Positions 6,945 to 49,160 of a stretch of DNA of 57,787 bases are shown piece after piece; position 1 is the stretch's first letter; each line of letters opens with the position of its first letter. Position numbers and translations under genes: made by a program. Source of the stretch: Thermomicrobiales bacterium (lineage in GTDB: Bacteria; Chloroflexota; Chloroflexia; Thermomicrobiales; CFX8); NCBI GenBank assembly GCA_023954495.1, contig JAMLIA010000013.1, forward strand, positions 1-57,787, given 5' to 3'. The notes beneath the pieces were generated by a model that had not been told where the DNA came from, made no database searches, and saw nothing but the letters and a program-made list of their open reading frames with translations.

Positions 6945-7027
6945 CCGCCGACTCTGGCGTAGAATGCGGCAGCCTCCGACCCCGCTCGGAGCACTCCGAT
7001 CCGCCGCAGATGATCGAAAGGACCTGC

Positions 7028-8542
7028 ATGCCTGCCCGTACAACCGGCCAGCCCCCAACAATCACGCTCGCCTTCGCCGCCGATAGCCCGACCGCATCGA
7101 CCGCCGACGCCCTCATCCTCGCAGTCCCGCCAGGCGACGACGCATGGCAGGGCCCTCTTGCTGACGTCGATGGCGCGCTCGACGGTGCGCTGCGTCAGGC
7201 GCTAACCGACGCCGACTTCGACGGCAAGGTCGGCTCGACACTGACGATTCCGACGTTGGGCCGTCTGCCGGCCAAGCGCATCGTTGTCACCGGCCTGCCC
7301 GCCTCGGGCGCTGGCGTCACCGAGACGCGGCGTGCCTACGGCGCAGCCGTCTCTGCCGCCGCGAAGGCCGGCGCGAAGAACATTGCCGCCCCAGCGCCGG
7401 GCGGATCCGAAGGCGAAGTCGCGCGCTACCGCGCTGCGATCGAGGGCGTCCTGCTGGCCAGCTACGACTTCCGCGGCTACAAGGCCAGCCGCGGCGAAGC
7501 CAGCGGCATCGACTCCTGGACGTTCCTGACCACCGAAACCGATGCGGCCCGCAAGGGTGTTGCCGAAGGGTTCGCCATCGCCTCGGGCATCTACCTGGCC
7601 CGCGACCTCGTCGCCGAGCCAGGCCAGACGATCTACCCCGAGACACTGGCCGCCGCCGCGAAGCAGATGGCGACTGACAACGAGCTCGACTACCGTGAGT
7701 ACGACGAGAAGCAGCTAGCCGAGATGGGCGCGAACGCGATCGTCGATGTCGGCAAGGGCAGCGTCCACCCGCCGCGCCTGCTGCACCTCACCTACACGCC
7801 GTCCGGCGAATCGAAGGGCACCATCGCCTTCGTCGGCAAGGGCATCACGTTCGACACCGGCGGCATGAACCTGAAGCCGACCGGCGGCATCGAGACGATG
7901 AAGACCGACATGGCCGGTTCGGCAGCCGTCCTCGGCGCGATGCGCGCCGTCGCCGGACTGGACCTTCCCTTCACCGTCTACGGCATCATCGCCAGCGCCG
8001 AGAACATGCCCAGCGGCACCGCGTTCCGCCCCGGCGACGTCCTGACCGCACTGAATGGCAAGACGATCGAGATCATCTCGACCGACGCCGAAGGCCGCCT
8101 TGTCCTGGCCGACGCACTCGTCTATGCCGCCCGCGAAGGTGCTGACGAGATGATCGACCTGGCGACGCTGACCGGCGCGAAGATGATCGCGCTGGGTGCG
8201 GAGTCGGTCGCCGTCTTCTCCAACGACGACGATTTCGCGGCACGGGTCGTCGACGCCGGCACTGAGGCGGGAGACCTGTTCTGGCACATGCCGCTCTGGG
8301 ACGCGCTCAAGAAGCAGATCAAGAGCGACATCGCCGATATGAAAAACAGCGGTGGCCGTGGCGGCGGCGCGATCACTGCCGCGCTGCTGCTGGCCGAGTT
8401 CACCGAGGGCAAGCCCTGGGTACACCTCGACATCGCCGGCGCAGCTTACACCGACTCAGCACGCGACGATACGCCGAAGGGCCCGACCGGCATCGGCGTC
8501 CGCGCTTTGGTGAACTACCTGGAAGCGAAGGCGCGCGCATAG
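7028..8542 (+). CDS. pepA: Leucyl aminopeptidase (M17 family)
   Basis: The enzyme removes N-terminal residues from peptides in the cytoplasm, normally as a hexamer with two divalent metals per active site. The C-terminal catalytic domain is complete: FVGKGITFDTGGMNLKP (Lys at about 271 and Asp at about 276) and the signature STDAEGRLVLADAL at about 351-364, in which the usual first Asn of the signature is Ser. Further metal and active-site context appears in KTDMAGSAAVLGAM and NSGGRGGGAITAALLL. The length of 504 residues is typical. The ATG at 7028 has GAAAGGA 7 nt upstream and is preferred to an ATG 18 nt earlier. The gene is flanked by terminators on both sides, so it is monocistronic. Confidence 0.95.
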   Translation: MPARTTGQPPTITLAFAADSPTASTADALILAVPPGDDAWQGPLADVDGALDGALRQALTDADFDGKVGSTLTIPTLGRLPAKRIVVTGLPASGAGVTETRRAYGAAVSAAAKAGAKNIAAPAPGGSEGEVARYRAAIEGVLLASYDFRGYKASRGEASGIDSWTFLTTETDAARKGVAEGFAIASGIYLARDLVAEPGQTIYPETLAAAAKQMATDNELDYREYDEKQLAEMGANAIVDVGKGSVHPPRLLHLTYTPSGESKGTIAFVGKGITFDTGGMNLKPTGGIETMKTDMAGSAAVLGAMRAVAGLDLPFTVYGIIASAENMPSGTAFRPGDVLTALNGKTIEIISTDAEGRLVLADALVYAAREGADEMIDLATLTGAKMIALGAESVAVFSNDDDFAARVVDAGTEAGDLFWHMPLWDALKKQIKSDIADMKNSGGRGGGAITAALLLAEFTEGKPWVHLDIAGAAYTDSARDDTPKGPTGIGVRALVNYLEAKARA

Positions 8543-8560
8543 AGCGCAGCCTGCGTTAGC

Positions 8561-8605
8561 AACGAAGCACCCTTGCGAGTTGTCGCAGGGGTGCTTCGTT
8601 GTTGC
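8561..8605 (+). terminator. Terminator hairpin after pepA
   Basis: A long stem of about 17 bp (CAACGAAGCACCC... pairing with ...GGGTGCTTCGTTG, with one G-T pair) encloses a 6-nt loop some 20 nt after the pepA stop. The following GTTGCG gives only a weak T tail, but position and stem strength fit a terminator. Confidence 0.65.
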
Positions 8606-8634
8606 GAGGATGAGCGCGCAAATCCGTTCCCAGG

Positions 8635-8676
8635 AACAGCGCTGGCGCTGTCATCGCCGTGAGGCGACCCTCCCGC
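8635..8676 (+). repeat. Two-hairpin repeat motif, copy R1
   Basis: Stem 1 is ACAGCGC (8636-8642) with GCGCTGT (8645-8651). Stem 2 is TCGCC (8654-8658), loop GTGA, GGCGA (8663-8667), followed by CCCTCCCGC. An 88-bp direct repeat links this copy to R2: both are preceded by AGCGCGCAAATC, at 8613 and 8701. In this copy stem 1 differs in sequence from R2 but still pairs. Confidence 0.75.
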
Positions 8677-8714
8677 AGGCGTGCACTGATTGGCAAAGAA
8701 AGCGCGCAAATCTT

Positions 8715-9072
8715 CCGTACGGACAGGACCCGGCCTGTCCTCGCCGTGAGGCGACCCTCCCGCGTCGAAGTGCAACCTTCCAACCACTGAACCCGCGTGA
8801 CTGGGGGTCTGCATACATCCGCGCATCACGAACATGCGTTATGGCCGTCGAAATGTAGGGGCATATCGCATACGCCCGTATAACACCACGACCTGATCGA
8901 ATCGACAGCCACAGTGTCCGGGTGCCCATTATGGATGGTCATGTATCTGGCCGGGCGTATGCGATACGCCCCTACATTTTGGGGCAGACGCGTGGCGACA
9001 CGTAGAGGCCGCCGTCAACCGAACCGGGAGGGTCGCCTCACGGCGAGGACAGGCCGGGTCCTGTCCGTACGG
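8715..9072. repeat. Nested inverted-repeat cassette A with 48-bp perfect ends
   Basis: The sequence at 8715-8762 is repeated without mismatch as its reverse complement at 9025-9072. Each arm holds the two-hairpin motif (GGACAGG/CCTGTCC stem, then TCGCC-GTGA-GGCGA). Between the arms lies the 129-bp palindromic element at 8851-8979. No gene and no clear target-site duplication is visible. The cassette occupies the whole space between pepA and the small gene downstream of ispH. A second cassette built on the same plan spans 36969-38746, interrupted by an IS. Confidence 0.85.
8851..8979. repeat. Palindromic MITE-like element, copy A
   Basis: Terminal arms at 8851-8878 and 8952-8979 are 28-bp inverted repeats with one mismatch, beginning AAATGTAGGGGC and containing the sub-palindrome CGCATACG/CGTATGCG. 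The internal 73 bp includes a segment (about 8911-8940) that reappears in reverse orientation inside copy B. There is no open reading frame, so any movement would need an enzyme supplied elsewhere. Copies B and C are at 38441-38559 and 40239-40360. Confidence 0.85.
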
Positions 9073-9123
9073 GGGATAGGACGCCGATTGTCTCTCCAAC
9101 GCACTGCACGGGAGGATTCGCCC

Positions 9124-9498
9124 TCAGCCGCCCAGCAGTGCGATCTTGCGCTCGGCCAGCTCGGTGAACACGTCCATCAGCCAGGGGATCATCTCTTCAG
9201 GGACCTGGCTGTCGGCTATGAAGTCCTGCAGCATGAGCGCCTGCGTCTGGGCGTCGAACTCGGTCGCCATCCAGACAAACTCGGCGATCACGGCTGCCGA
9301 TTGAAACTCGGTTTCGTTGCGCGCGTTGAGCAGCAGCGGAGCAGCGTACTCGAAGAACAATTCGCTGGCCGGGTCGATTTCGACCGGCATGGTCGGGTCT
9401 GCCGCGACCTGCTGGACGGCCTCCTGTGCCTGCGAGACGGACTCGCGTGCGTTGCGCAGTCGCCGGTTGCTAGTACGCTGGCGTCGCTTCGAGGTCAA
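9124..9498 (-). CDS. Hypothetical helical protein overlapping the end of ispH
   Basis: This 124-residue protein is not recognised. It begins with a strongly basic stretch (KRRQRTSNRRLRNAR) and is otherwise acidic and predicted mostly helical, with no signal peptide. The proposed TTG start at 9498 lies inside the 3' end of ispH (29-nt overlap) and is preceded by AGGAGGG, so it is probably translated from the ispH transcript. The acidic helices, for example PASELFFEYAAPLLL and DVFTELAERKIALL, give no functional clue. It ends 50 bp before cassette A. Confidence 0.6.
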   Translation of the reverse strand: MTSKRRQRTSNRRLRNARESVSQAQEAVQQVAADPTMPVEIDPASELFFEYAAPLLLNARNETEFQSAAVIAEFVWMATEFDAQTQALMLQDFIADSQVPEEMIPWLMDVFTELAERKIALLGG

Positions 9499-10426
9499 CC
9501 TGGCGCAGCCCTCCTATCGGCGCGGGATAGCCGCAGCCGACGAGAAAATCGATGACCGACTGAATCACGTCGTCCGGCGTCGACGCACCGGCGGTGATAC
9601 CGGCGGCGTCCTTGCCCTCTAACCAGGCAACGTCGATATCCTCAGCCCGTTCGATGTGGTAGCTCGGAACACCCATGAGGTTGCCGACCTCAGCCAGTCG
9701 CGCCGTGTTCGACGACTTCTTGCCGCCGATCGCAAGGATCACATCGGCCTCACGCGCAAGCTGCTTCAGCGCATTCTGGCGCTCGAAGGTCGGCTCGCAG
9801 ATCGTGTTGGTGATACGGATCTCGCCACCCTCCGGCGACACCAGCGCCGTCAGCTCGGCGACAAAGCGCAGCATCTCATCGGTGTTCTTCGTCGTCTGCG
9901 AGACGATCGCGACTTTGCGCGGAGGAGTCTTCGCGCCCTCTTTGCGCGAGCCGCGCGGCGCGTCCCACGGCAGATCAGCGATCTTCTTTGCCGGATAGAT
10001 GCGCGACGTTCCGGACCAGGCCATGATGCCCTTGACCTCGGGATGGAAGTAATCGCCGTAGACGACGACGGTGTAGCCCTGCTTGGCGAGCTTGTTCGCC
10101 ATGCGCTGGACCTTGGTCACGAGCGGACAGGTCGTGTCGATCAGCTCCAGCCCGAACTTCTCCGCCTCGGCCTTGCGCTCCGGGCCGGCGCCGTGGGCGG
10201 TGATCGCCACACGCTTGTAGCCGCGGTTGGCTGCCTCCTCGACCGAGGTGGCCGTATCGACGCCCTTGGAGTGCAGACGTTCGACAACCTGCGGGTTGTG
10301 GATCACGTCGCCAATCGTCGCCACTGGATTATTGACGTCGCCCGCATCCTGGATAATCTCCAGCGCGCGCCGCACGCCCCAGCAGTAACCCATCTCGTTC
10401 GCCAGAATAATTCGTCGGTCGCCCAT
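9470..10426 (-). CDS. ispH: 4-hydroxy-3-methylbut-2-enyl diphosphate reductase
   Basis: IspH catalyses the last step of the MEP isoprenoid pathway, reducing HMBPP to IPP and DMAPP with a [4Fe-4S] cluster. The three cluster cysteines are present at C15 (GYCWGVRR), C100 (DTTCPLV) and C210 (TICEPT). Substrate-binding residues are seen in VIHNP (His43), AHGAGP (His78) and DYFHPEV (His128, Glu130), plus SQTT near residue 176. The protein has 318 residues, near normal, with a small basic insertion around residues 155-170 (APRGSRKEGAKTPPRK). AAGGGG lies upstream of the ATG. The overlapping small gene downstream shares the transcript. Confidence 0.95.
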   Translation of the reverse strand: MGDRRIILANEMGYCWGVRRALEIIQDAGDVNNPVATIGDVIHNPQVVERLHSKGVDTATSVEEAANRGYKRVAITAHGAGPERKAEAEKFGLELIDTTCPLVTKVQRMANKLAKQGYTVVVYGDYFHPEVKGIMAWSGTSRIYPAKKIADLPWDAPRGSRKEGAKTPPRKVAIVSQTTKNTDEMLRFVAELTALVSPEGGEIRITNTICEPTFERQNALKQLAREADVILAIGGKKSSNTARLAEVGNLMGVPSYHIERAEDIDVAWLEGKDAAGITAGASTPDDVIQSVIDFLVGCGYPAPIGGLRQVDLEATPAY

Positions 10427-13607: not shown

Positions 13608-14378
13608 GTGGGCGAGACATCATCGCGGCAGATTCGGCGGTCTGACGAGCATTACACGCCGATAGCAAGCGCGTACACGACCAGCGCTATTCACGCGCAG
13701 GGCGCGGACCTCGCCCGGCTCGTCGAGCTTGCGGCGCTTGCACCGGGCGCGCTTGTGCTGGATGTCGGCACCGGCACCGGCCACACCGGTCTGGCTTTCG
13801 CCGCTGCCGGGGCAAGCATCGTCGGACTGGACCTGACCCATGCGATGCTGGCGGAGGCACGCGCTCTGGCAAAGGAGCGCGGCGCGGCGCTCGCGCCGGT
13901 CCGTGGCGCGGCGGAGCTGCTGCCGTTCTCAGATGCGACGTTTGACGCGGTCGTCTGCCGGTACTGCGCGCATCATTTTATGGATGTAGCGGCGGCAATT
14001 GCCGAGATGGCGCGTGTCGTGAAACCGGGTGGGATCGTCCTGCTGGACGACCATGTTGCGCCGGAGGATGACGCTGCCGACGAATTCATCAACCGGCTCG
14101 ACTGGCTGCGCGATCCGTCGCACCGGCGAGAGCCACGACTCAGCGAGTACGAGGGCTGGTTCGGAGCAGCCGGACTGCGGGTGACGGCGGTTGAACACCG
14201 GCGGGAGCGAATCCATGTCGACGAGTGGTTCGCCCGGGCACGCACGACACCGGAGCGCCAAGACGAAGCTCGGACGCTGCTGGCAACTGCCGCGCCCGAG
14301 CTTCAGGATCTCTTCGCGATTACTGCCGATCCGGTCGGCTTCGATCTGCATGCCGTGATCGTGAGCGCCGTGCGCTAG
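13608..14378 (+). CDS. Class I SAM-dependent methyltransferase (UbiE/Methyltransf_11 type)
   Basis: The protein is 256 residues. Motif I is LVLDVGTGTGHTG (residues 49-61), motif II ends in VGLDLTHAML, and the acidic/aromatic region PFSDATFDAVVCRYCAHHF and post-motif VVKPGGIVLLDDHV complete a standard Methyltransf_11 fold. The substrate is unknown. The start is the GTG at 13608 because AGAGGAGGACAG lies immediately upstream; the open frame extends further 5' but overlaps the divergent DUF2905 gene. Its stop overlaps the end of the convergent aminotransferase gene by 4 nt. Confidence 0.87.
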   Translation: MGETSSRQIRRSDEHYTPIASAYTTSAIHAQGADLARLVELAALAPGALVLDVGTGTGHTGLAFAAAGASIVGLDLTHAMLAEARALAKERGAALAPVRGAAELLPFSDATFDAVVCRYCAHHFMDVAAAIAEMARVVKPGGIVLLDDHVAPEDDAADEFINRLDWLRDPSHRREPRLSEYEGWFGAAGLRVTAVEHRRERIHVDEWFARARTTPERQDEARTLLATAAPELQDLFAITADPVGFDLHAVIVSAVR

Positions 14379-15520
14379 CGCACTGGAAGCGCTTCGAGCA
14401 GCCGGTCGATGTCGCTGGCTGTGTTGAAGAAGTACGGCGCGACACGAAAGCCCGACGCCCGTTGCGTCACCGATACGCGCGCATCCTTCAGACGCTGGGC
14501 GATCTCGTCATCTTCGGTCGCGCCACCGCTGGTGAAGGTCAGAATCTGCGACCGCCGCGCCGGTGTGAGATCGGAAACGATCTGATAGCCCGCGCCGGTC
14601 AAGCCCTCGGCCAACGTGTCCAGCAGCGCCAGTGAATGCGCGGCGCTGCGCTCGGGACCAACTTCGGTGACGAGCGAAAGCGATGAATGGAGCGCTGTCA
14701 TTCCGGCCTCGTTGAGACCGCCAGTCTGAAATCGTGCAGCACCGTCGCGCCAGTCGAGCGCATATTCAGGATCGTCGAACGGGCTGCGGACTGACAGACG
14801 ACCAGCGTAGGTTACCTGTAGTCGCTCAGCCGCGCCGGGAGCGAAGACGACGACACCGAGGCCGAACCCGGCCATCAGCCACTTGAAGCAATGGGACACG
14901 ACGGCAGTCGCGCCGAAGTCAGACATGTCGACCGGCTGAATGCCAAGTGCCTGTGTCGCGTCCACGAAGAGCTCAACGCCACGCTCGCGACAGAGTGCGC
15001 CGAGTGCCTGGATGTCGTTCCGATAGCCGTCGATGAATTCGACGTATGAAATCGCCATCGCCCGCGTGCGGTCGTCGATGCTGTCCGCGATCAGATCGAG
15101 GTCGGCGCGGCCAGCTTCGTTGCGCGGCACCAGACGGACGGATACCTCCTGGCGCTGCAAGTTCCGAAACGGATAGACGACCGACGGATATTCGCCTTCG
15201 AGGAGTACGACGTTGTCGCCCGGCCGATAGTCGATGCTGTGGGCCAGCAGGTTCATTCCGTCGGCCAGCGACGGCACCCAGGCGATATCTGCCGGCGTCG
15301 AACCGGTCAATGTCGCCATCATCTGAGCGGTCTCTGCCGCGATGTCGGGACGCTCCGTCTCGAAGAAGTTCGGCGCATCGCCAATGTTGGCGACCCATGC
15401 CTGCGTTGCGCGCACGGTGCGCTGAGGGAATGGGCCGAACGAGGCGGTGTTGAGATACGCCCACTCGGCAGTAAACGGGAACTCGCTCCGCAGCGCTTCC
15501 ACGTCGATCGGTTCGGACAC
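14375..15520 (-). CDS. Class V PLP aminotransferase, tandem copy 1
   Basis: The 381-residue product is a PLP enzyme of the class V group that includes cysteine desulfurases, isopenicillin-N-epimerase-like proteins and EgtE-like lyases. Conserved elements are YLNTASFGPFP (residues 22-32), WVPSLADGMNLLA, FVDATQALG (PLP-ring Asp) and SHCFKWLMAGFG with the Schiff-base lysine at K213. No cysteine-desulfurase loop is recognisable, so the reaction is not defined. The GTG at 15520 follows AGGAGG closely. Without the apparent 41-residue upstream extension it has exactly the same length as its neighbour, of which it is a clear paralogue. Confidence 0.88.
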   Translation of the reverse strand: MSEPIDVEALRSEFPFTAEWAYLNTASFGPFPQRTVRATQAWVANIGDAPNFFETERPDIAAETAQMMATLTGSTPADIAWVPSLADGMNLLAHSIDYRPGDNVVLLEGEYPSVVYPFRNLQRQEVSVRLVPRNEAGRADLDLIADSIDDRTRAMAISYVEFIDGYRNDIQALGALCRERGVELFVDATQALGIQPVDMSDFGATAVVSHCFKWLMAGFGLGVVVFAPGAAERLQVTYAGRLSVRSPFDDPEYALDWRDGAARFQTGGLNEAGMTALHSSLSLVTEVGPERSAAHSLALLDTLAEGLTGAGYQIVSDLTPARRSQILTFTSGGATEDDEIAQRLKDARVSVTQRASGFRVAPYFFNTASDIDRLLEALPVR

Positions 15521-15653
15521 TCGATACCTCCTGTGCGGGGTGCTCGTGAAAACAAGTCGGGGGTTGATGCGAGCGCCGCCCTGCCACGACGCGGCGGCGG
15601 ATTCTCGCCGCCGCGTCGTGTTGACGCCCATGCGATCGGGCAATGTAATCTGA

Positions 15654-16799
15654 TCAGCGCAGCGGCAGCGCGCGCACTAAGCGCTCGATGTCGTCGGCGG
15701 TGTTGTAGAAGTACGGTGAGACGCGGATGCCGCGCCCACGCAGCGTCACGGAGATCTTCGACGCTTCCAGGTCGGCGACGATCTGGTTGTCGCGGTCGCG
15801 GTCACCACTGGTGAAGGTGATGATCTGCGAGCGGTGGTCGGGGTCCATGTCAGACGCGATGTCGTAGCCTTTCTCATCGACGCCCTCGGCGAGGCGCGAC
15901 GTGAGGTCGAACGTGTGGGCCGACGACCAGGCCGGACCGACCTGCGTCACGAGCGACATCGAGCTGAGCAGCGCCGCCAGGCCGAGCTGGTTCAGACCGC
16001 CGGTCTGGTAGCGGCCAGCGCCGTCGCGCCAGTCCAGCGCGTAGTTGTGATCTCCATAATCGACCTTGACCCCCGATCGTCCGGCGTAGGTAACGTCGAT
16101 GCGCTCGATCGCGTCCTCGGCAAAGATGACGACGCCGACGCCGAACCCGGCCATCAGCCACTTGTAGCCGTGCGAGGCAACGGCGCTGACTCCCGTGCCG
16201 ACGAGGTCGACCGGCTGCGCGCCGAGCGATTGAGTGGCGTCGACGAACAGCTCGATGTTGCGCTCGCGGCAGAGCTTGCCGAGCTTGACCAGGTCGTTGC
16301 GGAAGCCGTCCATATACTCGACGTGCGAGATCGCCAGCGCTCGGGTGCGATCGTCCATCGCCGCTTCGATCAGGGCCGGATCGGTGCGGCCCTCGGCGTT
16401 ACGCGGGACGAAGCGGATCTCGACACCGCGGCGCTGGAGATTGAGGAAGGGGTAGACGACCGAGGGGAACTCGTCGGTCGGGATCAGGACGTTGTCGCCT
16501 TCCTTCCAGCTGACGCCGTGGGCGAGCAGGTTCATGCCGTCGGCGAGGGACGGCACCCAGGCGACCATGTCGCCGCTGGTACCGGCCAGGCTGGCGACTG
16601 CCGCTGCGGCCTTGTCCGGCACCGACTCGCGATCGGAAGCGAAGAAGTCGCCGGGGCTGGCGAAATCCTCGGCCCAGCGGTGGACTGCTTCGACGGTACG
16701 CCTCGGGAACGGACCATAGGCCGCGTGGTTCAGGTACGCCCATTCGCCAGCCATTGGAAATTCATCACGCAAAGTCTGAAGGTCAACCGATTGAGCCAC
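15654..16799 (-). CDS. Class V PLP aminotransferase, tandem copy 2
   Basis: This 381-residue enzyme is co-linear with the downstream copy along its whole length: YLNHAAYGPFP, VAWVPSLADGMNLLA, FVDATQSLG and SHGYKWLMAGFG with the PLP lysine. The N-terminal DEFP and C-terminal YFYNTADDIERLVRALPLR also match, so the pair arose by tandem duplication. The GTG start has GGGAGGG upstream. It is transcribed first; 133 bp separate it from the second copy, whose own ribosome binding site is strong. The reaction is unknown; related families include epimerases and C-S lyases. No neighbouring biosynthetic pathway fixes the substrate. Confidence 0.88.
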   Translation of the reverse strand: MAQSVDLQTLRDEFPMAGEWAYLNHAAYGPFPRRTVEAVHRWAEDFASPGDFFASDRESVPDKAAAAVASLAGTSGDMVAWVPSLADGMNLLAHGVSWKEGDNVLIPTDEFPSVVYPFLNLQRRGVEIRFVPRNAEGRTDPALIEAAMDDRTRALAISHVEYMDGFRNDLVKLGKLCRERNIELFVDATQSLGAQPVDLVGTGVSAVASHGYKWLMAGFGVGVVIFAEDAIERIDVTYAGRSGVKVDYGDHNYALDWRDGAGRYQTGGLNQLGLAALLSSMSLVTQVGPAWSSAHTFDLTSRLAEGVDEKGYDIASDMDPDHRSQIITFTSGDRDRDNQIVADLEASKISVTLRGRGIRVSPYFYNTADDIERLVRALPLR

Positions 16800-36968: not shown

Positions 36969-37102
36969 GTGAGGGTTCGCGGCTGGGTTGGACTGTATCG
37001 AGCGGGTGGGAGATCTTTCGGTTGCGACCTCAAGATGACAGAGGGCGGGATTGGCTGTCGGGAAAGCGAGTACTTGATCGTGACGTAGGGACAGCGCTCG
37101 CG
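36969..37102. repeat. Left outer arm of interrupted repeat cassette B
   Basis: This segment is about 85-90 percent identical, in reverse orientation, to 38615-38746. It includes a core (GACTGTATCGAGCGGGTGGG near 36991) also found at 48968-49060, and ends in the first half of the two-hairpin motif (GGGACAGCGCTCGCG), where the IS is inserted. The motif continues on the other side of the IS at 38353-38386. There is no gene in 36806-37102. Confidence 0.75.
37095..37102. repeat. Target-site duplication, left copy
   Basis: CGCTCGCG lies immediately outside the left terminal repeat of the IS and matches 38353-38360 exactly. Removing the IS and one copy restores the uninterrupted hairpin stem GACAGCGC-TC-GCGCTGTC. 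Confidence 0.85.
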
Positions 37103-38352
37103 CCAACGTTGTCGCATTAACCGGGGACAGGCGGCGACCCGTCCTGTGCACAGAGATCCATGAGCAGCGCCATGCCACAGGCACGCTGAAAGGCGACCCG
37201 TGAGACTGCCGCCGGTCGGTGCTGCTCCAGATAGGCCAGCACCGCCGCGACCGTGACCGCGATCACCAGCGTCAACCAGACCGCTTCCGGACTCGTCCCC
37301 AGCGGTCGGATGACCCCCAACTCCTGCTTGAGCCACCGAAAGGTCAACTCAATCTGCCAGCGCTCCCGATACAGCTGTACAACCTCCGCAGCGCTGAGAT
37401 CGTGCCGATCCGTAATGAAGCGCTGCTCAACCCCTGCCGGATTCCGACTGGTAATCAGCCGGATATTAGGCAGCACCGCACCATTCCGATTGTTCGGACT
37501 ACCCAGCGTGATGATGGCATCGCTCACGATCGTGTCACCAGCCGGTGTGTTCGTGTCCGGCACGGACTGCTGCGTCGTGATAGCGATCCGTGCCTGGGGG
37601 TGCAGGCGCGTGATGAAGGCGACCTCAGCCTGCTGGAGGCGCGCAAGATAGCGATGGCCGTAGTAGCCCAGATCGCAGACGATGGTCCAGCCACACCAGG
37701 GTTCGAGGTCAACCGTCGCCAGGAAGGTCGGTCATTGGTCGGGAGATCGGTGACGGTGAGCTGGATGGGGATCGTGTCGGACAACGGCAGAAAGGTCTGG
37801 ACCCGCACGCCCGCATGCGTTCCCGCACGACTCCAGGGACTGCGCGCGGCGCTGAGGGTCACGATGGTGTGATCGAGCGCGACGACATGCTTGGTGGGCA
37901 GGGCGCGTCGTGTGCGCCGGGCGCGCCGACCAGGTGTCTGCTGCGCCAGGGTGGTCACGGCGCTGAGGAGGGCTTCAGCACATGCTGGTGGTCGACTGGT
38001 GGAGGAGCGTGCCAACTGACTGAAGCTGACCCAGTGCGACATGCCCCAGTCCCGCCACATGGCAGGCTCATGCTGAGAGGATGGCGTGGGTCTGGCGCAG
38101 ACTGCCTGCGCCGTGCAGGACATGCAGCAGCAAGGTCCAGAGATGGGCGGTGGCGGGAAAGACCTTCCGATAGCGGTCGGCACCAGGCGTCTGGCCGGCG
38201 GCCTCGACGAGTGGGGCGAGGAACCGACGGAACTGGCGCTGGTGGATGACTGGTTGGCTTGATAGCATGATGGTGGCTCCGCTTGATAGACCGATCGGCT
38301 CGACACCATCAGTCTATCCGGAGCCATCTCTTTTTTAATGCGACAACGTTGG
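37103..38352 (-). mobile_element. IS4-family insertion sequence, 1250 bp
   Basis: The ends are 18-bp perfect inverted repeats starting CCAACGTTGTCGCATTAA (37103-37120 and 38335-38352), bordered by the 8-bp duplication CGCTCGCG. The only gene is a minus-strand transposase that fills the element. The duplication length and the Y-R-E signature of the transposase fit IS4. Because ends and duplication are perfect while the transposase has two frame changes, the insertion is recent, or the frame changes are sequence errors. Confidence 0.92.
37117..38268 (-). pseudogene. IS4-family DDE transposase, two frame changes
   Basis: The coding sequence starts at the ATG at 38268 (GGAG upstream) and would give about 383 residues. 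The N-terminus (VIHQRQFRRFLAPLVEAAGQTPGADRYRKVFPATAHLW) is in one frame until about 38070, where one extra base shifts it. The middle (RDWGMSHWVSFSQLARS, VALDHTIVTLSAARSPWSRAG with the first catalytic Asp) runs to about 37735. There a lost base restores the first frame, which continues with DLGYYGHRYLARL (second Asp) and YRERWQIELTFRWLK, the IS4 Y-(2)-R-(3)-E-(6)-K signature. All catalytic parts are present, so the two compensating indels are the only defects. Confidence 0.88.
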
Positions 38353-38360
38353 CGCTCGCG
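38353..38360. repeat. Target-site duplication, right copy
   Basis: CGCTCGCG immediately follows the right terminal repeat of the IS and equals 37095-37102. Confidence 0.85.
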
Positions 38361-38775
38361 CTGTCATCGTCGTGAGACGACAATTCCTCGTAAACCGAGG
38401 CGTGCTGTACGCGAGGTTCGATTTTGGCGCGTCGCCCTCAAAATGTAAGGGGCGTATTGCATACGCCGGCCGGAATCACGCTCATCCAGCATGGGCACCC
38501 ATGCACCGTGGCTGCCGGTCAAAGCGGGTCAGACAAAACGGGCGTGATACGCCCCTACACACGGGTGCAGACCGTCCCACGCACCGGTGACGACAGTGTC
38601 GCCTCACGGCGATGACAGCGCGAGCGCTGTCCCTGCGTACGATCAAGTATGCCGCCCGACAGCCAACCCAACCCTCTGTCATCTTGAGGTCGCAACCGAA
38701 GATCTCCACCCGCTCGATACAGTCCAACGCAGCCGCGGGCACTCACCGCACCTGCCAAATCAACGGTGAGTCTGC
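38361..38775. repeat. Repeat cassette B, right part
   Basis: In order this gene-free 415 bp holds: the rest of the left two-hairpin motif with stem 2 TCGTC-GTGA-GACGA (38367-38380); the palindromic element copy B (38441-38559); the right motif in reverse (stem 2 at 38599-38612, stem 1 at 38614-38631); and the right outer arm to 38746, which mirrors 36969-37102. Before the IS inserted, the whole cassette would have been about 520 bp. Confidence 0.8.
38441..38559. repeat. Palindromic MITE-like element, copy B (degenerate)
   Basis: The left arm AAATGTAAGGGGCGTATTGCATACGCC and right arm CGGGCGTGATACGCCCCTACA are the same terminal repeats as in copies A and C, with a 4-bp gap and several changes. 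The internal segment 38488-38521 is the reverse complement of the core of copy A at about 75 percent identity, so the copies are related along their length, with B inverted relative to A. Confidence 0.75.
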
Positions 38776-48918: not shown

Positions 48919-48967
48919 CGGCGAGTGGCTTTATGATGGCGGTTTTGCGCGACAGCCATTCTGTTGT

Positions 48968-49060
48968 CCTGTCATCTCGAACCGCAGTGAGAGATCTCCC
49001 ACCCGTCCGATACAGTCCGACGCAGGGGAGATTTCTCGCGTGCGCGCTCGAAATGACAGG
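48968..49060. repeat. 93-bp imperfect inverted repeat related to cassette B arms
   Basis: CCTGTCATCTCGAA...GAGATCTCCC on the left pairs imperfectly with GGGGAGATTTCTCG...CGAAATGACAGG on the right over about 33 bp. The middle TCCGATACAGTCCGACGCAG matches the core of the cassette B outer arm (CTCGATACAGTCCAACGCAG at 38713-38732). The repeat sits between gltX and the convergent FAD oxidase gene and contains no gene. Confidence 0.75.
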
Positions 49061-49160
49061 ACGCGGGGGCGACTGCCGCGCCAGGTTGCTCGGCATGTTG
49101 GCGCCGACGGATCACCAAGGTGAACCCGCTCGTTGCAGCACCAATCACCTACCGCACGCA

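Follow-up and report, generated by a model that had tools for sequence, protein, structure and literature searches.

One REP family nested within another in a Thermomicrobiales genome: a likely composite REPIN/BIME recurring at many loci

Introduction

REPINs and BIMEs, together with their RAYT transposases (TnpA-REP, Y1 HUH transposases), are the described systems that come closest to the locus reported here. In the sections of the central papers available to us (PMC3116915, PMC3733652, PMC2817692), these systems have several traits in common with our locus: inverted pairs of head-tagged hairpins, a high copy number, an intergenic position (seen here for the copy in the window), a related spacer within heads-out (HH) pairs, and a cognate RAYT bordered by its own repeats. 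Two other traits set our locus apart from the REPINs/BIMEs of these sections. At many loci, one REP family encloses another, unrelated one in an order that is fixed, and the unit of the outer family consists of two successive hairpins that mostly carry a GTAC head.

GTAG-tagged REP dimers residing inside longer palindromes are recorded, in the accessible part of one of these studies, for A. variabilis (GTAG-15) and, within small palindromes, for T. roseum (GTAG-23) (PMC3733652). The GTAG-15 arrangement resembles ours in that a REP dimer lies within another palindrome; according to the same part of that paper, the outer palindrome was not observed alone in A. variabilis, whereas in our case it represents a RAYT-linked REP family that is also found alone, as is the inner one. 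The excerpted description of the TnpA-Y1 subclass 2.4 REPtrons names the motifs NH[IFV]H, WQ and YIxNNP, and long as well as double-foot REPs (PMC6006769). For ISPsy8, ISPpu9 and other insertion sequences, the targeting of REPs is likewise on record (PMC1525189). Hence, REP doublets, RAYTs bordered by repeats, REP dimers in other palindromes, double-foot REPs and REP-targeting insertion sequences have all been described in the available texts. Searches of the partially accessible literature for REPs in connection with Chloroflexi, and for REPs in nested or composite form, brought up no account of a recurrent REPIN-in-REPIN, and we therefore take the nest as a new form of a known kind of repeat: a passenger repeat of familiar type whose recurrent nested form is apparently undescribed.

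Results and Discussion

Anatomy of the cassette

The window, i.e., the whole stretch of 57,787 nucleotides that we analyzed, comprises all of contig 13 of a Thermomicrobiales genome of 3.36 Mb in 152 contigs (GCA_023954495.1). An initial annotation had drawn attention to a 358-bp cassette with perfect 48-bp inverted ends, and these ends are indeed present at 8715-8762 and 9025-9072 without a single mismatch; when widened to 58 nt, they are 93% complementary. The nested 129-bp palindrome is located at 8851-8979 as proposed, but its 28-nt arms, described as inverted repeats, agree at 27 of 28 positions, with one base differing. The extent of 358 bp needs to be revised, since a fifth outer-type hairpin lies just 5' of the cassette at 8628-8676, so that the feature spans about 8628-9072. 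The cassette had also been described as free of ORFs. No gene was recognized within it, the ORFs there being known from mechanical calling alone; two such ORFs do overlap the cassette (8515-8835, minus strand; 8914-9555, plus strand), and the latter is antisense to 9124-9498, a stretch whose DNA is kept in a relative. The window copy is intergenic, positioned between an aminopeptidase gene and a conserved ORF (Table 1), and a promoter scan returned 0 promoters.

When folded as single-stranded DNA, the 358 nt reach -129.7 kcal/mol as compared to -69.0 +/- 4.0 for 100 shuffled sequences (z -15.2; 0/100 as good); the corresponding RNA fold yields a z of -18.7. The predicted fold is one long hairpin, in which the outer arms form the first stem and the inner arms the second.

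Table 1. Positions of the repeat units and of their neighbors in the window
Feature	Coordinates	Strand	Basis
Flanking gene: leucyl aminopeptidase	7010..8542	+	Pfam PF00883, NCBIfam NF002073, both above cut-off
Additional REP hairpin of the outer type (O), subtype ACAGCGCTGGCGCTGT, with degenerate head	8628..8676	+	Repeat search, architecture, R1 (covariance model) E 5.6e-22
Left O arm: head GTAC, hairpin 1 GGACAGG/CCTGTCC, hairpin 2 TCGCC/GGCGA	8715..8763	+	R1 E 2.0e-30
Left O-I spacer, ~40 nt over the usual ~50	8764..8849	.	Comparison with other loci
Left inner (I) REP: GTAG head, hairpin GGGC(A/G)TAT-CGC-ATACGCCC	8850..8879	+	R2 E 2.6e-9
71-nt core separating the I arms; kin to cores of other loci, reversed here	8880..8950	-	Core comparison
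Right I REP, GTAG head outward	8951..8980	-	R2 E 1.5e-10
Right O-I spacer, usual length, kin to spacers of other loci	8981..9023	.	Spacer comparison
Right O arm, inverted copy of left arm, perfect over 48 nt	9024..9072	-	R1 E 1.0e-29
Flanking ORF without family match; DNA conserved in G001	9124..9498	-	Family search, G001 comparison
Flanking gene ispH, convergent with aminopeptidase gene	9470..10426	-	TIGR00216 above cut-off
Left O arm of second composite, first portion (CGTAGGGACA + GCGCTCGCGC)	37084..37103	+	Ends of the insertion sequence and 10-bp duplication
Insertion sequence, 1248 bp, ends CAACGTTGTCGCATTAA, within O hairpin	37104..38351	.	Ends and 10-bp duplication GCGCTCGCGC at 37094-37103 and 38352-38361
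Second composite, remainder of left O arm	38352..38389	+	Profile scan, architecture
Second composite, I REP pair	38440..38563	.	Profile scan, architecture
Second composite, right O arm	38590..38638	-	R1 E 7.4e-21
I REP pair lacking O arms, immediately downstream of dnaA stop codon	40236..40364	.	Repeat search, covariance model, dnaA call

The perfection of the outer arms had been read as a sign of recent formation or of gene conversion between them. We found that the left arm (49 nt, including one flanking base) has an identical counterpart on contig 140 and shares 96-98% identity with many further copies; the existence of this identical arm means that neither recent formation nor gene conversion is needed to account for the perfect arms. 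Across 12 elements, arm identity amounts to 83.6% within and 80.9% between elements, with 278 of 10,000 permutations yielding a value as high. Judged from these comparisons, the perfect arms reflect the homogeneity of the family, any local effect being weak at most.

Copy number and head sequences of the two repeat families

Used as a BLAST query against its own genome, the cassette recovers 139 matching pieces, and a covariance-model census at E<=0.01 places the outer family (O) at 103 and the inner family (I) at 114 positions. Profile scans for both families covered the window and 40 further stretches that were mostly picked at matches (referred to below as the scanned sequence); six 20-kb stretches picked independently of matches, on contigs 1-6, contained no O or I match. 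Contigs 27, 36, 55, 68, 72 and 97 end in or beside O, I or the RAYT gene, so that further copies are probably missing from the assembly.

Of the 62 O and 67 I candidates, 58 each went into the alignments, the most degraded ones having been dropped by eye. Among the I units, GTAG is the head in 46/58 and GCAG in 7/58, whereas GTAC dominates among O heads in register (32/58, as compared to 9/58 with GTAG) and is also the head of the window's own arms. The stem of O carries 15 cells altered on both sides, a number matched by 0 of 500 shuffles; pair 14-21, for instance, is G-C in 42 sequences and C-G in 11. A short conserved motif (about CNAACCTT) lies 8 nt upstream of O units genome-wide, just outside the 48-nt arms, and is possibly a part of either the element or its target. 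We also noted one I hairpin (L017:19333-19462; contig 21 near 24430) that is fused and carries GTAG at either end, as would be expected after a deletion between I arms (double-foot REP).

Organization of the nest

In the order that recurs in this genome, O is separated from I by about 50 nt, I from an inverted I by about 70 nt, and the latter from an inverted O by about 50 nt again, with the GTAC and GTAG heads facing outward. Thirteen complete O-I-I-O loci are present in the scanned sequence, others being cut by contig ends or decayed. The census of pairs was based on those O and I places that are among the matches listed (100/103 and 93/114, respectively; 97 and 92 after removal of overlaps), and the following counts refer to these. 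Out of 23 heads-out I pairs, nine have an O unit within 110 bp on both sides, five on one side and nine on neither; O thus flanks 14 of the 23, as compared to about 0.6% expected by chance for each. Each of the 23 O units that flank these pairs has the correct orientation, and no O flanks any of the nine heads-in I pairs. Other O pairs enclose a different core of about 122 nt, and extra O units were found on one side only, with nine tandem cases.

The I-I cores are related across loci, with 127 of 344 pairs lying beyond the 99% null, and so are, more weakly, the O-I spacers (108 of 545 pairs). End-to-end alignment of full composites works in one orientation, and two loci, L014 and L024, have both side spacers in common. 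Strict co-inheritance of core and spacers was considered as well and is not supported: their similarities are uncorrelated (Mantel r 0.04 and 0.17, values that 1786 and 601 out of 5000 permutations also reach), and there is little side specificity (49/1000). These two findings leave room for mosaic exchange or repeated nesting.

Occurrence in related genomes

A search with the cassette at 1e-6 in 61 order-level genomes retrieved its own genome as the sole match; at 0.001, 4 of 31 genomes matched, its own included. The two families are distributed differently. G001, a member of the same genus, contains O at 13 places, with the same hairpin 1 and a different second hairpin, and I at 0 places. 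In another family, G007 and G011 carry I at 135 and 18 places, respectively, O matches there being few and weak (best 4.2e-4 and 4.6e-6). As O occurs without I in G001, and I without clear O in G007 and G011, two separately distributed repeat families meet in the genome studied here.

The initial annotation had suggested comparing the locus in close relatives for presence or absence, and had named a cassette sitting at the same site in all of them, with no copy elsewhere, as evidence against its proposal. What we found is a cassette with many copies elsewhere and a site in G001 that lacks it. G001 keeps the aminopeptidase gene, the conserved ORF and ispH in convergent order, and the interval of about 82 bp between the aminopeptidase gene and the ORF, as compared to about 600 bp in the window, indicates that the cassette is absent there; this short gap contains a terminator-like hairpin by eye, and its intergenic flanks are strongly diverged from those in the window. 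The aminopeptidase gene and ispH are also kept in G003, where the intergenic alignment is poor, and in G002 and G004 they reside on different contigs.

Association with RAYT genes

A match to the Y1 transposase family is present in 7 of 13 genomes, including the one studied here. In the latter, there is a single match, which scores 22.3 bits against a cut-off of 23 and represents a C-terminal fragment located where contig 36 ends. The nearest NCBIfam family of this fragment is the REP-associated tyrosine transposase NF047646 (44.8 bits over 59 residues; cut-off for the full length, 80). It displays the motifs WQ...YIANNP, and its HUH half would lie off the contig. These motifs, together with the fused double-foot I hairpin, which has the form that a central deletion would give, resemble what the available part of PMC6006769 reports for TnpA-Y1 subclass 2.4, and at most suggest that the fragment might belong to this subclass.

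An O unit with a GTAG head is positioned 96 bp beyond the stop codon of the RAYT fragment. The initial annotation had proposed to search the genome for a REP-type Y1 nuclease flanked by the same arms, and this single case answers the question for one side: the gene is a fragment and its other side is off the contig. The GTAG head is thus found in the O copy beside the genome's own RAYT, and it is also carried by O-like hairpins next to RAYTs of other phyla. At named genome loci with related RAYTs, O-like hairpins of the GTAGGGACAGGTCGCGACCTGTCC type were detected in 7 of 80; across these 80 loci, 12 of 13 places with an O-like hairpin 1 lie no more than 700 bp from the RAYT match, where 28% of the bases lie. 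The RAYT loci of G004 and G010 are accompanied by other GTAG hairpins, and no RAYT match was found in G001, despite its O copies. The link of the I family to a RAYT is seen in G011, an order-level relative, where I pairs stand on either side of a RAYT whose open frame comprises 267 residues (L190); in the genome studied here, no RAYT bordered by I was found.

Origin and spread of the nest

We consider it likely that the cassette is a composite, nested REPIN/BIME, in which a heads-out I pair resides inside a heads-out pair of two-hairpin O units, both families being linked to RAYTs. As far as its sequence allows one to judge, it is probably a passenger element that is moved by an enzyme encoded elsewhere, a point on which the initial annotation is borne out by the RAYT fragment that adjoins an outer-type arm on contig 36. 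The spread of such an element would begin when its DNA becomes single-stranded, for example at a replication fork, and the outer arms fold. A RAYT would then recognize the head and the hairpin of the O REPs, nick beside the head and join the strand elsewhere, with the enclosed I pair travelling as cargo. The I pairs themselves would probably have spread earlier by means of an I-specific RAYT, none of which is seen in this assembly. Since the genome's own RAYT is a C-terminal fragment cut by the contig end, the active enzyme is at present only a candidate.

How the nests arose is a matter on which we are more guarded. The RAYT-linked outer arms might serve as exchangeable ends for different cores, one of them being a complete REPIN of a second RAYT family, with the whole nest of about 310 bp copied as a unit and two transposase lineages sharing one passenger; we put this forward tentatively and with some doubt. 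Serial nesting would explain the same loci through I pairs that inserted independently and repeatedly into the centers of O pairs, palindromes being preferred targets, so that each nest would be a separate event. We regard this origin, which is likewise compatible with a REP nature of the element, as conceivable though far from assured. It would account for I pairs that occur alone (9 of the 23 heads-out pairs among the matches listed), for O pairs that surround a different core of about 122 nt, and for the lack of correlation between core and spacer similarity. There is also precedent: A. variabilis and H. neapolitanus have REP dimers that lie within longer palindromes (PMC3733652), and P. 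fluorescens SBW25 has five regions where unrelated REPINs are inserted in or beside one another (PMC3116915). However, the O-I spacers are related across loci (108/545 above the 99% null), and those of both sides are common to L014 and L024, which serial nesting fits only if the targeted O pairs already had these spacers in common.

Readings outside the REP framework fare less well. Long perfect terminal inverted repeats, the lack of genes, many copies, absence from a relative and the presence of an insertion sequence in the same window are all traits that one would expect of an ordinary MITE, whose outer arms would be the terminal inverted repeats of a DDE-type insertion sequence with target duplication. 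Yet the arms are two-hairpin units that are found singly and in tandem as well, an O unit adjoins a RAYT, and the insertion sequence in the window has unrelated ends and sits inside an O hairpin; we therefore judge this explanation to be very improbable. A structural RNA or terminator kept for a host function, such as a bidirectional terminator or an mRNA stabilizer between convergent genes, instead of mobile DNA, would suit the location of the cassette, its RNA fold (z -18.7) and its one terminator-like site (8953-8971; 0.4, sd 0.6, in shuffled sequences). We hold it to be unlikely, as no Rfam family apart from a tRNA was detected in the window, the orthologous site in G001 lacks the cassette and has a terminator-like hairpin in its short gap, and the element is multi-copy and RAYT-linked. 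A secondary use of the cassette by its host is possible.

If the cassette is a composite REPIN/BIME, as we favor, it bears on two still-open questions, namely, which unit of a REP replicates and how RAYTs bring about its spread. Two REP families that are distributed independently of each other and nest recurrently provide a natural test of which arms move together and of whether the inner pair travels as cargo. At the same time, the nesting of REPs within REPs can account for striking palindromes that appear layered in raw sequence, without local gene conversion.

A second composite and other features of the window

The initial annotation had recognized the same plan in the 37-38.7 kb region. 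The plan is present there, with the qualification that the left outer arm is split by an insertion sequence of 1248 bp and that the composite lies between two arms (36972-37059 and 38658-38743) belonging to a third palindromic family. The insertion sequence is unnamed and has a weak match to an IS4-type transposase (37524-38327, minus strand). One of its ends was found by pattern four times in the scanned sequence, and all four of these ends abut an O hairpin, a likeness to what the available text on ISPsy8 and ISPpu9 describes (PMC1525189); this pattern suggests that the element at 37104-38351 represents a REP-targeted insertion. The third palindromic family, whose consensus includes CTGTCATCTCGAGGCCGCAACCGAGAGATCTCCCACCC, has 54 matches in the scanned sequence, many of them next to O or I, and occurs in the window also at 48951-49076. 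Further along, two neighboring minus-strand ORFs within 14375-16799 have long direct repeats in common (71-75%), which likely stem from a tandem gene duplication.
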